Notes under the pieces: generated by a model
Databases searched by the model: none
Told to the model about the DNA's origin: nothing
Seen by the model: the letters and a program-made list of their open reading frames with translations, nothing else
Assembly: GCA_902797695.1 (NCBI GenBank)
Contig: CADBTW010000043.1
Coordinates: 1-47,149, forward strand
Origin: an uncultured Sutterellaceae bacterium
GTDB lineage: Bacteria > Pseudomonadota > Gammaproteobacteria > Burkholderiales > Burkholderiaceae_F
Direction: 5' to 3'
Length of the DNA stretch: 47,149 nt
Program-made: the position numbers and the translations under genes
Part shown: in pieces, positions 702-47,149 of the stretch
Layout: every line of letters begins with the position of its first letter
Position numbering within the stretch: position 1 is the first letter of the stretch

Positions 702-1004
702 ATGAAAATGAAATCCAGCAAACGGCCCAGCGGTGCTAAACTGCGTCCATCCGTATTAACAAGCGGATACGGCTTTCGCAGGCCGAACGGTTCTAGGCGA
801 GCAATCGCCGCACTTCTCCAAGCGCGGTTTTTTGTTGCTCCATCTCATGGCACTAGTGCGCCCGCAGCTTCTATGGGCGTGCCGTGCGGGACGCCTTCGG
901 GCGTGCCGGTTCCTAGAACCCGGTCTGCGAACCCGCACGGTACCGCCCGCCCTTTCGCAGGGGTGAACGGTTTCCTCCAATCAGTTCTAGGAGCCAAGCC
1001 ATGA
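702..1004 (+). CDS. Small ORF resembling Ash/Icd-type satellite proteins; possibly not translated
   Basis: This 100-codon frame spans the structured RNA at 875-948 and its upstream target. The predicted protein has the layout I associate with small ORFs often annotated Ash or Icd-like in P4-type islands: an SGYGF segment early, then FFVAPSHGT, a Gly-Pro-rich centre (MGVPCGTPSG) and a tail rich in Asn, Pro and Arg. Much of the sequence is constrained by RNA pairing, so the frame may be a by-product of the RNA gene. The ATG at 702 has only a weak GAGGGG upstream. Its stop overlaps the next start at 1001 (ATGA). The family assignment rests on memory of the family. Confidence 0.4.
   Translation: MKMKSSKRPSGAKLRPSVLTSGYGFRRPNGSRRAIAALLQARFFVAPSHGTSAPAASMGVPCGTPSGVPVPRTRSANPHGTARPFAGVNGFLQSVLGAKP
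775..797 (+). promoter_or_regulatory. Upstream antisense target copy (seqA-like)
   Basis: Bases 775-785 pair with 921-931 of the structured RNA (11 pairs, one of them G-U). After a three-base bulge, 789-797 pairs with 912-920 (9 pairs). The segment shares TTTCGCAGG, GAACGGTT and TTCTAGG with the second copy at 952-993. In phage P4 the equivalent seqA lies upstream of the CI RNA and pairing there drives premature transcription termination. The same role here is inference. Confidence 0.65.
808..833 (+). terminator. Candidate weak attenuator between target and antisense RNA
   Basis: CCGC at 808-811 can pair with GCGG at 824-827, followed directly by six T residues at 828-833. The stem is short (4 bp), so this is weak by itself. 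It sits where a P4-type immunity system would place its regulated terminator, between the upstream target copy and the antisense RNA. Pairing at 775-797 could favour it. Confidence 0.35.
875..948 (+). ncRNA. Structured antisense RNA of the C4/CI immunity type
   Basis: The closing stem pairs 875-890 with 932-948: 16 pairs including one G-U, with a single bulged C at 943. It encloses two hairpins. The first is 891-895/900-904 with the stable C-UUCG-G tetraloop. The second pairs CCGGTTC (906-912) with GAACC-C-GG (916-923), with a three-base loop. The second hairpin and the strand 924-931 are complementary to target copies at 775-797 and 954-993, the latter covering a Shine-Dalgarno sequence. Phage P1 C4 and P4 CI RNAs are processed from the leader of the transcript they control, partly by RNase P. 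Structure and complementarity are read from the sequence; family and function are inference. Confidence 0.7.
954..993 (+). promoter_or_regulatory. Downstream antisense target copy covering a ribosome binding site
   Basis: TTCGCAG at 954-960 pairs with 925-931 of the RNA, and GTTCTAGGA at 984-992 pairs with 911-919, with G993 able to wobble-pair to 910. The second block contains AGGAG (989-993), the ribosome binding site of the gene starting at 1001. Antisense pairing would therefore hide it. The gene at 1001 overlaps the replication gene, so repression could pass on by translational coupling. Confidence 0.65.
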
Positions 1005-1381
1005 GCGAATCCTGCTTTAAGCGCGAACATTCCTTCCTGTCCGAATGTTTCCCGGACGAAGACTTCATTAATTTCTACACCCTTTCGAACGCTTTACGAA
1101 AGCTGCAAACCCCCACGCGCCAAAACCTTGAGGCCGCACGGGGCGGGCTGGCTGAAGTTCAGGGTGAAATCAATTGCGTTTTGGCCTGCCTGTCCGAGTT
1201 AATGGCCTACAGGCACTTTCATCCCGAGGAAAAGAGCCTTTGCACGGACTACTCCGTGAGTCAGGCCTTGGGATTTTTAACCGGCATTTCCGAGTTCTGC
1301 TCGCATTCTATTGAGACAATTGAAGCGAGGCTGGGCCTGCGGGTGTATGCAGCGGAGGATTCAGCCCATGACGGAAATTAA
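1001..1381 (+). CDS. Hypothetical protein coupled to the replication gene
   Basis: A 126-residue soluble protein of unknown function with several Cys residues and a predicted mostly helical composition. The ATG at 1001 has AGGAG at 989-993 with good spacing, and that site lies inside the downstream antisense target. The gene ends 14 bases after the start of the replication gene, so its translation probably drives translation of the primase/helicase. It may act mainly as the regulated entry point of the replication operon, or be a replication accessory or toxic 'kil'-like protein. Nothing in its sequence decides this. Confidence 0.75.
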   Translation: MSESCFKREHSFLSECFPDEDFINFYTLSNALRKLQTPTRQNLEAARGGLAEVQGEINCVLACLSELMAYRHFHPEEKSLCTDYSVSQALGFLTGISEFCSHSIETIEARLGLRVYAAEDSAHDGN

Positions 1382-4322
1382 GTACAGCATTGTCAAAGGC
1401 GTCCGTTCTACGGTTGCGGAGCCTCACGCTGCGGAAAGCTTTCGGGCGTTCTATGACGCGCTGACGCTCCGGCCTTTGTGGGCTGGAACACCCGAGGAAA
1501 AGGCTGCGTTGACCGGCCCCCTTTTCGCGCCACAGTTCCCCAACAACTCGAGGGCTGCGAAGAGCGTACCCCTTGGATCAGCCTTCTGTGTTATCGATTA
1601 CGACCAAGGGAACAAGGCCGTATCGCGCGCGCTCCAGCAGGCCGCAGCGGCCTTCGGGTGGTCTTTCTTCTGCTTCACCACCGCGAGCCACACAGAAGAG
1701 CAACCCCATATCAAGCTTGTCATTGAGCTTGACCGCGAGGCAACGGCTCAGGAGCGGCTGGCGGCTTACGACAGCTGCGCCCAAAGGCTGAGCGCAGAGC
1801 TTACGGGCAAGGGCTTCAAGCCGGTCGGCGGGGCTGGCTTCTTCGACCCCACGGCTCGAAAGCCCGAGCATTTGCAGTATGTTCCCGGTCGGGCAGCAAA
1901 GCATTCTTTCCACGCGGGCGCCCCGGTTTCCGTGGACAAGGCCGTAAGCGCCCTTAAAACGCCCTTGGAGGCCCGCGCCGGGCAAGAGGGAGCAGTTACT
2001 GCCCCGGCTTGTCCGACTGCCTCCAAGCGCGTTTCTGAGGCGGCGGGCAGCGCTCCGATCCCGAGGGCTGACGAAGACCCGGTTTTAAACGCCCTGCTTG
2101 ACCGAGGATTGACCGAGGGGGAAGTGCGGCCTGACGGAGGCATCATCTGCACCTGTCCGTTCGAGGATGAGCATACGGAAAAGGCTGCGGGCAACGATAC
2201 TTCCTGCGTCTACTACCCCCCGACAGTTCAGGCTCGATCTGACAAGCAGGGGAAAGACTTCTTCTTGGGCCGCATTGTCTGCCTCCATGCCCATTGCCAA
2301 GGCCGGACAATGAAGGACTACTGCCGGAGGCTTCGCGTCAGCTATGCGGATTTCGTGAAGTACTGCCGTGCGGCGCAAAACGGGTTTAAGGATGAGGAAG
2401 AAACGCGGGCGCTGCTGGGTGATCCCGAGGGGCTGTTTCCTCAGGTGGTGGGGAAGGATTACCTGTATGTTCCCGAGGGGCGCTATTACTACGCCCACAA
2501 AATGACGGACAAGGGCAACGACAATAACTTCCCGCTTTGCACCCTGATCCGCGTAACGGGCCAGTACAAGGCCGAAGACCAACGGGAGCGCGGCCTGATG
2601 CTGGAGGTTTACGGGGAGGATGATGATCCCCCGGTCGAAATCAGCGTATCCAAGGATCTTGTGACAAAGCCCGACCGGCTTGTGTCTGATCTTGTGAACG
2701 CCGGGCTTGAGGATAAAGCCCTTTCAATGCAGAACGGCAAGAGGCTGATTTGCGAACTCATTGCCAATTTTCCCAAGGACAAGGTGCCTTCATTCCGGGG
2801 CGTGGACTACTGCGGATGGGTGGACGGCAGCGAGGGCTACTGCTTCATGAAGCCGGGCGGGGAAGTGCTGGGGGCGTGCCGTGATGGGATGCGGTGTTTC
2901 TACACAGGCCGCGAGGCGCCGGACGAAAGCCGGGGCAGTCTCGAGGAATGGCAGCAGAAGATCGCCCTGCCCGCGCTCAAATCCTCTCGCGTTGTTGCCT
3001 GCTTGGGCGTGGGCTTTGCCGGGGCGTTGTTTCGCCTGATCGGAATGCCGTCCCGGGGGCTGAACATTGTAGGCAAGTCCGGGGTGGGCAAATCCACCGG
3101 CCTGAAGGCCGCCTGCTCGATCTACGGGAGCGCTCGGCCGGGGCTTCGCTTTGGATCCTGCGACACTTCACGCGGGGGCGCCGAGGCCATCATGGCCCGG
3201 GCAAACGGCACTCTTGCCATACTGGACGAAGTGCAGCAGGGAAACCCGAAATTTGTTGAAAAGATCGCCCTGACGCTGGGGAACGAGGCCCCGCGCACCC
3301 GGCAGTCAATCAACCTCACGCTGCGCCGCCAGCATTCGTGGAGCGAGGGTTTCCTGAGTTCTTCGGAAATCCCCCCTCAGGTCTATCTGCTGCGGCATAA
3401 GATCACAATGGCTGTAGGCGCCGAGCGGCGCGTACCCTGCGTGGAGGCTCAGCCCAAGGGAGGCTACGGATGCTGCGAGCGCGAAGGCTTCAGCAGTATT
3501 GAGGAATCAGCCAAATGGGCGGCGCAGCTGAAGCGGGCGGCTGAGCATGAGGCCTACGGAACGGCAGGGAACGAATGGCTTAAGGCCATCATTGCCTCGG
3601 TAGAACGGGACGGCCTTGAGGCGTGGAAAGACCACTTCTTCAGCCTCAGGGACAAGGCCGGGGCGCGGCTGGCGCCCGGGAAACTTTCAAGGCTCGAGGC
3701 CCAGCAGCTGATTGATGTGCGCGAAAGCTTTGAAGCCTACGCTGCGGCCCTGCTCTTAGCCCGCGAGTACGGGATTCTGCCGCCCCAGTACACGGAAGAA
3801 GCGATCTTCAAGGCCATAGGGGCCTGCTGGGAAAGCGCAGCCAGTACCTTCAGAGGAACAGCTGGCGAGGTGCAGGACATTGCGGAGGCCATCCTAGGCA
3901 TAGTGGCCTCGAAGGCCGACCAGTTTGATGCTACAGCAGGCCGAAACGTGCTGTACAAGGCGCCCTCCTATCAGGATAGGCTTGGAATCATCTTCAGCAC
4001 GGTAACGGATGATGCCTCGCTGCGGACGGCCTCCGACTGGAACAGCGTGCCCGATACGCCCGAGTCGATCCGCAGGAACCCGGAAACGGTTTTTTTCATT
4101 CCGAAGGCGTTCAAGGACAAGATCCTTGAGGGTCAGAGCATAAATGCAGCCATGCGGTTCTTCCCTGCGGAATGCTTTGCGGGGAACGAGGGAGAAAGCC
4201 GCCCGTGGTACTTCCATGCGGCCCAGCGGGGCCGGGTACAGTACGCCGGGATGTCTGCCGGTCAAAGGTATTTGGCCTTCAAGGTCGAAGCGCTGAAGCG
4301 GATAGCTGAAGGTGATCTGTAG
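1368..4322 (+). CDS. Primase plus DUF927-type helicase, satellite replication protein
   Basis: A 984-residue replication initiator in three parts. Residues about 65-175 look like an archaeo-eukaryotic-type primase domain, with the acidic CVIDYD motif near 74-79, TTASHTEEQPH near 104-114 and FFDPTARKPEHLQYVPG near 158. A zinc finger follows with C261, C263, H269 and then C305, H307, H309 and C310. The C-terminal half is a DUF927 P-loop ATPase with Walker A GKSGVGKST at about 569-577 and Walker B LAILDE ending at D620-E621. This matches the P4 alpha idea of primase and helicase in one chain. The ATG at 1368 has GGAGG at 1354-1358; an upstream in-frame GTG/ATG extension would run deeper into the preceding gene. 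Confidence 0.9.
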   Translation: MTEIKYSIVKGVRSTVAEPHAAESFRAFYDALTLRPLWAGTPEEKAALTGPLFAPQFPNNSRAAKSVPLGSAFCVIDYDQGNKAVSRALQQAAAAFGWSFFCFTTASHTEEQPHIKLVIELDREATAQERLAAYDSCAQRLSAELTGKGFKPVGGAGFFDPTARKPEHLQYVPGRAAKHSFHAGAPVSVDKAVSALKTPLEARAGQEGAVTAPACPTASKRVSEAAGSAPIPRADEDPVLNALLDRGLTEGEVRPDGGIICTCPFEDEHTEKAAGNDTSCVYYPPTVQARSDKQGKDFFLGRIVCLHAHCQGRTMKDYCRRLRVSYADFVKYCRAAQNGFKDEEETRALLGDPEGLFPQVVGKDYLYVPEGRYYYAHKMTDKGNDNNFPLCTLIRVTGQYKAEDQRERGLMLEVYGEDDDPPVEISVSKDLVTKPDRLVSDLVNAGLEDKALSMQNGKRLICELIANFPKDKVPSFRGVDYCGWVDGSEGYCFMKPGGEVLGACRDGMRCFYTGREAPDESRGSLEEWQQKIALPALKSSRVVACLGVGFAGALFRLIGMPSRGLNIVGKSGVGKSTGLKAACSIYGSARPGLRFGSCDTSRGGAEAIMARANGTLAILDEVQQGNPKFVEKIALTLGNEAPRTRQSINLTLRRQHSWSEGFLSSSEIPPQVYLLRHKITMAVGAERRVPCVEAQPKGGYGCCEREGFSSIEESAKWAAQLKRAAEHEAYGTAGNEWLKAIIASVERDGLEAWKDHFFSLRDKAGARLAPGKLSRLEAQQLIDVRESFEAYAAALLLAREYGILPPQYTEEAIFKAIGACWESAASTFRGTAGEVQDIAEAILGIVASKADQFDATAGRNVLYKAPSYQDRLGIIFSTVTDDASLRTASDWNSVPDTPESIRRNPETVFFIPKAFKDKILEGQSINAAMRFFPAECFAGNEGESRPWYFHAAQRGRVQYAGMSAGQRYLAFKVEALKRIAEGDL

Positions 4323-4675: not shown

Positions 4676-4751
4676 TGGTGCCCCCGCTGAGACTCGAACT
4701 CGGATCTAACCCTTAGGAGGGGCTCGTTCTATCCAGTTGAACTACGGGGAC
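4676..4751 (-). tRNA. tRNA-Arg (anticodon CCU)
   Basis: On the minus strand the 76 bases fold as a complete tRNA. The acceptor GTCCCCG pairs with CGGGGGC, the D arm contains AACTGGATAGAAC, the anticodon stem AGCCC/GGGTT encloses loop CTCCTAA with anticodon CCU, the T arm has the TTCGAGT loop, and the 3' end is encoded as A-CCA. Its 3' end faces the satellite element, which has inserted there and replaced whatever terminator the tRNA once had. Confidence 0.95.
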
Positions 4752-40609: not shown

Positions 40610-41206
40610 ATGGAAGATAACAGCTGCGCGCCGGGAAGCAGGAACCGGAACACATTCATTCTCGCCGCGAAGCCGCTATTTGCGGCGCGCGGGTTCGAGG
40701 GCGTCACGATGCGGGACATCGCGAACCGGCTCGGCGTCACGCAGGCGGCCCTCTACTACCACTTCAGGAGCAAGAGCGAGCTCTACCTCGCTGTCCTCGA
40801 AAAGGCGGCGGCGGGCCCGATCCAGAAGATCCGGGAAGCGGCCGGGGAGAAAAGCTCGCCCTCCGAGAGGATGCGTGCCGGAATCCTCGCGCTTCTCCGG
40901 GAATTCGCGCGGGACGCCGACCTGAGCCGGCTTCTCATGAGGACCGTGATCGACGAGGACCAGGACCGGGGCCGGGTGCTCGGGGAGAAGATCTTCGCTG
41001 AAGGCTTCCGGTTCTTCAGGGGCGAAGCCTCGGCGCTTCGCCCCGGGCTCGACCCGGGGGAAACCGCGTCCGCCGTGATCGCGGCCTGCACCTTCCCCTA
41101 CGCGGCGTCCGGCCTCGGCACGCACCTCGCGGGGCTGTCTCCCACGCCTCCGTCGCCTGACGCGCTCGCCGCCCACCTGATGCGCCTCTTCAATTTCGGG
41201 GACTAA
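40610..41206 (+). CDS. TetR-family transcriptional repressor of the efflux locus
   Basis: A 198-residue regulator. The N-terminal helix-turn-helix is canonical: ILAAKPLFAARGFEGVTMRDIANRLG in outline, then VTQAALYYHFRSKSELYLAVL. The C-terminal ligand-binding half is helical and moderately hydrophobic. The ATG at 40610 has GAGG seven bases upstream; an ATG at 40598 has none. It lies 5 bases before the adaptor gene, so it is the first gene of the RND operon and probably autoregulated through the operator just upstream. Confidence 0.9.
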   Translation: MEDNSCAPGSRNRNTFILAAKPLFAARGFEGVTMRDIANRLGVTQAALYYHFRSKSELYLAVLEKAAAGPIQKIREAAGEKSSPSERMRAGILALLREFARDADLSRLLMRTVIDEDQDRGRVLGEKIFAEGFRFFRGEASALRPGLDPGETASAVIAACTFPYAASGLGTHLAGLSPTPPSPDALAAHLMRLFNFGD

Positions 41207-47076: not shown

Positions 47077-47149
47077 TGGCGGGGGTGGTAGGACTCGAAC
47101 CTACGGATATCGGATTCAGAATCCGATGCCTTAACCAACTTGGCGACAC
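47077..47149 (-). tRNA. tRNA-Gln (anticodon CUG), 5' end beyond the window
   Basis: On the minus strand the anticodon stem TCGGA/TCCGA encloses loop TTCTGAA with anticodon CUG. The T arm GTAGG-TTCGAGT-CCTAC and the 3' acceptor CACCCCC-G-CCA with encoded CCA are complete. The window stops inside the 5' acceptor strand, about four bases short of the end. Confidence 0.93.

Follow-up and report, generated by a model that had tools for sequence, protein, structure and literature searches.

The probable immunity region and its element

The features that lie near the start of the window, i.e., the whole stretch of 47,149 nucleotides that was analysed, are given below in order of position.

82 to 303, + strand: AlpA-like regulator or excisionase (PF05930, E 5.3e-13)
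737 to 742, + strand: possible -10 box TAAACT of a leader promoter, read by position, 32 nt before a1, with no recognisable -35
775 to 781, + strand: a1 target, TTCGCAG, exact complement of 925-931
789 to 797, + strand: b1 target, GGTTCTAGG, exact complement of 912-920
796 to 809, + strand: putative antiterminator hairpin GGCGA-GCAA-TCGCC, from folding and the comparison of leaders; its first two bases are the end of b1
808 to 833, + strand: predicted intrinsic terminator, from folding, with its stem at 808-827 and T6 at 828-833; it shares 808-809 with the hairpin
869 to 954, + strand: C4 antisense RNA (cmscan, RF01695, 71.7 bits, E 3.9e-12)
954 to 960, + strand: a2 target, TTCGCAG, exact complement of 925-931, beginning on the final base of the C4 model match
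984 to 992, + strand: b2 target, GTTCTAGGA, exact complement of 911-919, overlapping AGGAG at 989-993
1001 to 1381, + strand: first gene proposed to be controlled, 126 aa, without a family match; its last 14 nt are shared with the start of the primase
1368 to 4322, + strand: primase/helicase-like protein, DUF927 (PF06048, E 8.7e-30; phrog_1139 DNA primase, E 2e-20)
4676 to 4751, - strand: tRNA-Arg(CCT), probably the attachment site, oriented with its 3' end towards the element

The gene order is that of the AlpA-like gene, an unknown gene, the immunity region, another unknown gene, the primase and the tRNA-Arg(CCT), and the element, judged by its sequence, looks P4-like, with a DUF927 primase, at tRNA-Arg(CCT). 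For the primase, whose listed frame opens at 1311, the ATG at 1368 was chosen as the start by eye, and the 126-aa product of the gene at 1001 to 1381 found no match in Pfam, PHROGs or NCBIfam. The genome of origin holds one match to this DUF927 primase and a single C4 match.

The contig begins inside the element, leaving the left end and any integrase located there off the contig, and no attachment repeat of the tRNA 3' end was found inside the window, the left part of the element being missing from the contig. The element at L030 (L and G numbers being our labels for loci and genomes) spans ~9.1 kb between 14-bp repeats of the tRNA-Arg(CCT) 3' end, and that at L027 covers ~10.2 kb, bounded by 22-bp repeats at tRNA-Leu; both carry a tyrosine integrase and a DUF927 protein. 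At the opposite end of the window (47080-47149), a tRNA is truncated by the window end.

Antisense pairing on both sides of the RNA

With its 71.7 bits, the RNA exceeds the curated RF01695 cut-off of 45, and its pairing parts are a loop (b', 911-920) and a junction (a', 925-931). GGG is present at 875-877, within the RNA, and the processing of C4 RNA is described in passages of PMC5320573.

The original prediction had placed two copies of a target at 773-797 and 952-993, which is borne out by the sequence and by script, with the coordinates agreeing within 1-2 bases. The RNA strand at 911-931 was expected to pair with the upstream copy over 20 bp (11 + 9, with a three-base bulge), and the predicted C4-a1/b1 duplex has exactly those blocks, three target bases being left unpaired between the 11 and the 9 pairs, at -33.6 kcal/mol. 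In the downstream copy, for which blocks of 7-8 and 9-10 pairs had been proposed, TTCGCAG (954-960) and GTTCTAGGA (984-992) are exactly complementary to the RNA, the duplex with a2/b2 being predicted at -22.8 kcal/mol, and this block does include part of the AGGAG of the gene at 1001, given that AGGAG lies at 989-993, b2 at 984-992 and the ATG at 1001. The sequence GAACGGTT, also named as shared, is real and common to both copies but, being partly inside the bulge of three bases, does not form a pairing block of its own. The c4-a1b1 targets are present by pairing, yet the motif is not assignable to RF03163, whose match at 736-789, spanning a1, is weak (23.2 bits, below the cut-off of 46.7).

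Complementarity of this kind may also be fortuitous, and a less strict scan of the 47-kb window, on both strands, did find three other places with 16 or 17 matches for a single pair. On the other hand, dinucleotide shuffles gave at least 16 exact matches in the same order in 2 of 2000 cases for the upstream 250-nt flank and in 0 of 2000 for the downstream 100-nt flank, and the C4 loci described below distinguish their own flanks from swapped ones. While a lone 16-match pair is not rare, two same-order pairs flanking the RNA are not the product of chance, and this explanation, whose probability is practically nil, was rejected on the shuffles and on the own-versus-swapped flanks, being refuted by the relatives. 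As a separate observation, a chance-looking 17-match pair to the C4 core is found at 40651-40750, within the helix-turn-helix of a regulator gene (by eye).

C4 matches were found in 16 of the 67 genomes of the window's family (24 matches, 20 of them above the Rfam cut-off, with L015, L016, L020 and L021 counted although below it) and in 24 of the 369 genomes of an even draw from its class, where 30 of the 55 matches listed were taken as loci and 29 of these were new and used. The comparison thus covers 55 C4 loci (24 from the family, 29 new class loci, P1 and P4), including some that are not independent (L001-L003 with L017, L015 with L016, and L052 with the close L066).

A pair was counted when the junction and the loop each found at least six exactly pairing bases, in the correct order, each locus being matched to its own RNA. 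An upstream pair is present in 51 of the 55 loci (with none in L004, L041, L062 and L064, and with L047 counted although its pair, 154 nt from the RNA and with a wide gap, is perhaps spurious), a downstream pair in 48 and both pairs in 45. When the flanks were swapped between loci, 146 of 2970 combinations passed upstream and 56 of 2970 downstream, and given that the loop letters vary widely among the loci, the result reflects matched change rather than mere conservation.

An energy version of the comparison, run on the 24 family loci, agrees with these counts, with own-flank means of -34.7 versus -24.8 upstream and -27.9 versus -20.4 downstream. Its misses are L005 upstream, where 23 other flanks were equal, and, downstream, L022 (22 flanks) and L016 (six flanks), the first of which is due to a pair lying beyond the 170 nt searched. 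At 206 nt before the RNA, this L005 pair is more distant than those of the other family loci. L022 and L019 (G061:C34) present two C4 RNAs ~900 nt apart, L022 having an upstream pair and no downstream pair, and several C4 matches occur in single genomes (ten in G340, and six each in G433 and G327).

In the window's genus, the junction core takes the forms GCGAA (L001), GCTAA (L002 and L003) and GTCAA (L017), with matching changes in both targets. L003 and L017 are found in one genome (G047), in elements ~80% alike over 4.3 kb, and their RNAs differ in a' and in one base near the b' loop, a coexistence that would be expected if the two elements belong to different immunity groups. For P1 and P7, a 4-nt deviation is treated as sufficient to restrict, presumably, the cross-action of the RNAs in passages of PMC5320573.

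The region of the window RNA is crossed by a 100-codon open frame (702-1004), which runs through a1b1, the terminator and C4, and its repeats may be read as the coding matter of a protein-coding gene. A frame that passes through the RNA from an upstream ATG is also found in L002, L003 and L017, it is likewise open in the more distant L005, L007, L008, L009, L018 and L023, and the translated matches reach 71-75% identity to L026-L028, with weaker ones to L029-L031. However, the 702-1004 translation has no match in Pfam, PHROGs or NCBIfam, the equivalent frame is interrupted ahead of the RNA or inside it in L014, L019 and L021, the inferred promoter falls 3' of the ATG at 702, and the P4 record likewise draws a 137-aa protein over its CI RNA. 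Although the frame is open in several relatives, the lack of domain matches and the frames closed in others make a coding gene highly improbable, and the annotation of frames over C4/CI RNA as genes is likely an artefact.

Consensus scans found no promoter in the window, which is not among the 24 of 51 upstream-pair loci that have a consensus promoter before a1, a number to be compared with the 1.8 expected from mononucleotide shuffles. In L002, L003 and L017, the hexamer TAAAGT ends 32 nt before a1.

The ribosome binding site and the predicted leader terminator

On the downstream side, b2 covers the Shine-Dalgarno sequence of the gene at 1001 and ends 8 nt before its ATG. An ATG is found 4-12 nt (median 8) 3' of b2 in 47 of the 48 downstream-pair loci, a count sought 2-17 nt after b2 and made without a shuffle control, and, at the level of the sequence, it is general among the C4 loci that b2 reaches into the region where the next gene starts. 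By prediction, the ribosome binding region of the window forms a structure of its own in which most of the Shine-Dalgarno is paired (990-993 being unpaired at 0.02-0.14), so that the site is possibly closed without C4, and C4 may add to a closure that already exists in part. The first-gene proteins examined are Rha or Bro-N antirepressor-like in 8 of 10 cases and match nothing in the other two, these ten having been picked, mostly as long ones, from 45, many of the remainder being short.

On the upstream side, the stem of the window terminator is CCGC...GCGG (808-827), although a stricter pattern scan of the window listed no terminator. A predicted stem followed by a T-run is found between b1 and C4 in 47 of the 51 upstream-pair loci, a presence that was scored without a shuffle control and includes some weak stems, while L044, L047, L065 and L069, which have no usable T-run by the rule applied, were excluded from the 47 leaders.

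The helices of the hairpin and of the terminator have at least two bases in common in 44 of the 47 leaders (mean 4.3), and the hairpin partner includes at least one b1 base in 41, both counts being without a shuffle control; the shared triples include the G-C-G, C-G-C, A-U-A and U-A-U kinds. Hairpins that reach the terminator arm occur in 42 of 47 leaders against 31.7 expected from spacer shuffles, which is a modest excess, and given the weakness of this count, tests of the hairpin strength and of the end dinucleotide were added. The strength was equalled by at most 5% of the spacer shuffles in 29 of 47 leaders, and in 38 of 47 no other dinucleotide would suit the hairpin strictly better than the natural end of b1, among them P1 with its TG and 8 of the 12 leaders whose b1 ends in letters other than GG.

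In a transcript that has just arrived at the 5' arm, the b1 end is predicted to be paired downstream at above 0.5 in 37 of the 47 leaders with a 25-nt lead, and in 35 with leads of 20 and of 30 nt. At equilibrium, the blocking of b1 brought a rise of more than 0.1 in the predicted terminator in 21 of 47 leaders and a fall of that size in none (25-nt lead), the equivalent numbers being 24 and 2 with a 20-nt lead and 24 and 0 with a 30-nt lead, whereas control blocks raised it in 5 of 47 at 25 nt, 6 at 20 and 9 at 30.

For the window itself, the predicted terminator stands at 0.94 in the absence of C4 and at 1.00 once b1 is blocked (25-nt lead), and any effect of C4 there must therefore be kinetic. 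With a 35-nt lead, the change was from 0.02 to 0.96, a large effect that is gone at 25 nt; the 35-nt leads before a1 probably included untranscribed DNA, and the calculations were repeated with 20, 25 and 30 nt. The result for the window hangs, then, on where the transcript starts. The corresponding hairpin of P4 is weak, at -3.0 kcal/mol. In the partial P4 transcript, the pairing probability of the b1 end is 0.49, and the terminator goes from 0.98 to 1.00 with b1 blocked. From these folding models, the hairpin-terminator architecture is general among the loci examined, and the size of its effect would rest on folding kinetics. An antiterminator hairpin receives no mention in the pertinent passages of PMC2864571, PMC4825925, PMC5320573, PMC8198154 and PMC8201110, a scope outside which the central P1/P4 papers lie, and it may well be published.

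Known systems and the proposed mechanism

The comparison with P1 C4 made in the original prediction is sustained by the family assignment of the window RNA, which is that of P1 C4, and by the P1 record AF234172, which annotates a1, b1, C4, a2, b2 and icd in the same order and with similar spacing. The a1-b1 gap is 7 nt in both, a2 begins a few nt from the end of the RNA in both, and the distance from the end of b2 to the ATG is 10 nt in P1 (icd) and 8 nt in the window. The immI operon of P1 and P7 (c4-icd-ant) carries icd and the antirepressor ant, whereas the window presents a small unknown gene and a DUF927 primase. In the P1 C4 region, transcription and translation control are combined.

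The parallel drawn with the seqA-seqB-seqC layout of P4 is also upheld, given that the CI RNA of P4 (X51522) scores as C4, with 74.9 bits, in the same family as the window RNA, and that P4 has, like the window, targets on both sides of the RNA and a stem with a T-run between the upstream target and the RNA. In the corresponding places, P4 also matches isrK above the cut-off (60.8 bits) and c4-a1b1 just under it (44.1). Briani et al. (2000) are said to have found, between the promoter and cI of P4, an intrinsic terminator, t1, that needs CI RNA and seqA. The P4-type order, i.e., upstream target, predicted intrinsic terminator, RNA, downstream target and replication gene, is present in the window. 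The genes controlled in P4 are said in passages of PMC4825925 to be replication genes, as here, although the replication protein of the window is, unlike that of P4, of the DUF927 type. The idea that transcription and translation control may be combined at this locus gains from the predicted stem and T-run of the relatives, but the combination is not special to the window, as it is described for P4 in the same passages.

Antisense-driven leader attenuation of the kind considered here is found in the pT181 and pIP501 types, in which the antisense RNA shifts the nascent leader of a replication gene from an antiterminating to a terminating fold. In those systems, the antisense RNA comes from the opposite strand, whereas the C4 RNA of the window would come from the same transcript. 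The leaders of RF03163 (c4-a1b1), which Rfam describes as the a1 and b1 targets of the C4 antisense RNA, and of RF01394 (isrK) resemble that of the window in having a1 in a hairpin loop, followed by b1, and neither model pairs the end of b1 with a terminator arm. Both C4 and c4-a1b1 already appear in the table of Weinberg et al. 2010 (PMC2864571), and it is proposed in a passage of PMC4825925 that the RNA following IsrK might influence termination at the terminator of IsrK in the way that CI does.

By its sequence, the region appears to be a complete C4/CI-type immunity switch, a mechanism well supported by homology and comparison, which would serve as the immunity region of an integrated P4-like mobile element. 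A single transcript would be expressed from a start before a1, and those transcripts that pass the terminator at 808-833 would be processed, with the C4 RNA being cut out. The junction and loop of this RNA would then pair with a2/b2, cover the Shine-Dalgarno and silence the gene at 1001, with the primase also being silenced through the gene overlap and polarity, and C4-type immunity through this occlusion of the ribosome binding site is considered very probable. In a second step, C4 would pair with a1/b1 on the nascent leader, remove the base of the competing hairpin (796-809) and favour the terminator, which would lead to less synthesis of C4 and of the operon; for this C4-driven attenuation, which derives from folding models, the chances are about even. 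The outcome would be a resident element that is kept quiet and is immune to elements with the same a/b letters.

One alternative is that C4 acts on translation at a2/b2 only, with a1/b1 being a leftover duplicate or an RNA sponge, and the terminator being unregulated. This would be in keeping with a change of at most 0.1 in the predicted terminator when b1 is blocked in 26 of 47 leaders (25-nt lead), and with the predicted unaided formation of the window terminator, but upstream targets that match the own RNA are kept in 51 of 55 loci, the match holds even where the RNA differs among the four same-genus loci, and the own b1 end is not strictly bettered for the hairpin in 38 of 47 leaders, all of which renders a restriction to translation rather doubtful. 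It has also been considered that the short a1/b1 leader RNA is itself the regulator, either by titrating C4 or by activating the downstream gene, in the manner of IsrK, which passages of PMC4825925 describe as activating anrP in Gifsy-1. The P4 leader does score as isrK (RF01394, 60.8 bits) and isrK matches below the cut-off are found in 5 of the 13 relatives searched, while no isrK match was obtained at E 0.1 in 650-1100 of the window, and the pairing geometry alone fits titration and attenuation equally; such a leader-borne function is judged unlikely.

The attenuation reading may be extended across the C4 family, including P1 and perhaps P4 too. In this extended form, the 3' end of b1 would be common to two competing helices, one being the C4-b1 duplex and the other an antiterminator hairpin, which would use the 5' arm of the terminator as its second arm. 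C4 would set its own level by attenuation, and C4, b1 and the arms of the terminator would change together, a proposal that could prove either right or wrong with similar likelihood.

The layout itself is already known from P1 and P4, at the textbook level, and what is new is the setting and the controlled gene, by which a primase-bearing element is added to those run by the classic RNA immunity switch. The many natural paired changes found in the relatives provide a ready-made test of specificity. If the attenuator reading is true, the retention of the upstream target in 51 of the 55 loci would follow from a single structural rule, and the autoregulation of P4 could be tested as a property of C4 RNAs in general. 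C4 immunity would then be a generally self-limiting circuit, with a single RNA controlling transcription on its upstream side and translation on its downstream side, and the shared design of b1, hairpin and terminator is the part worth testing.
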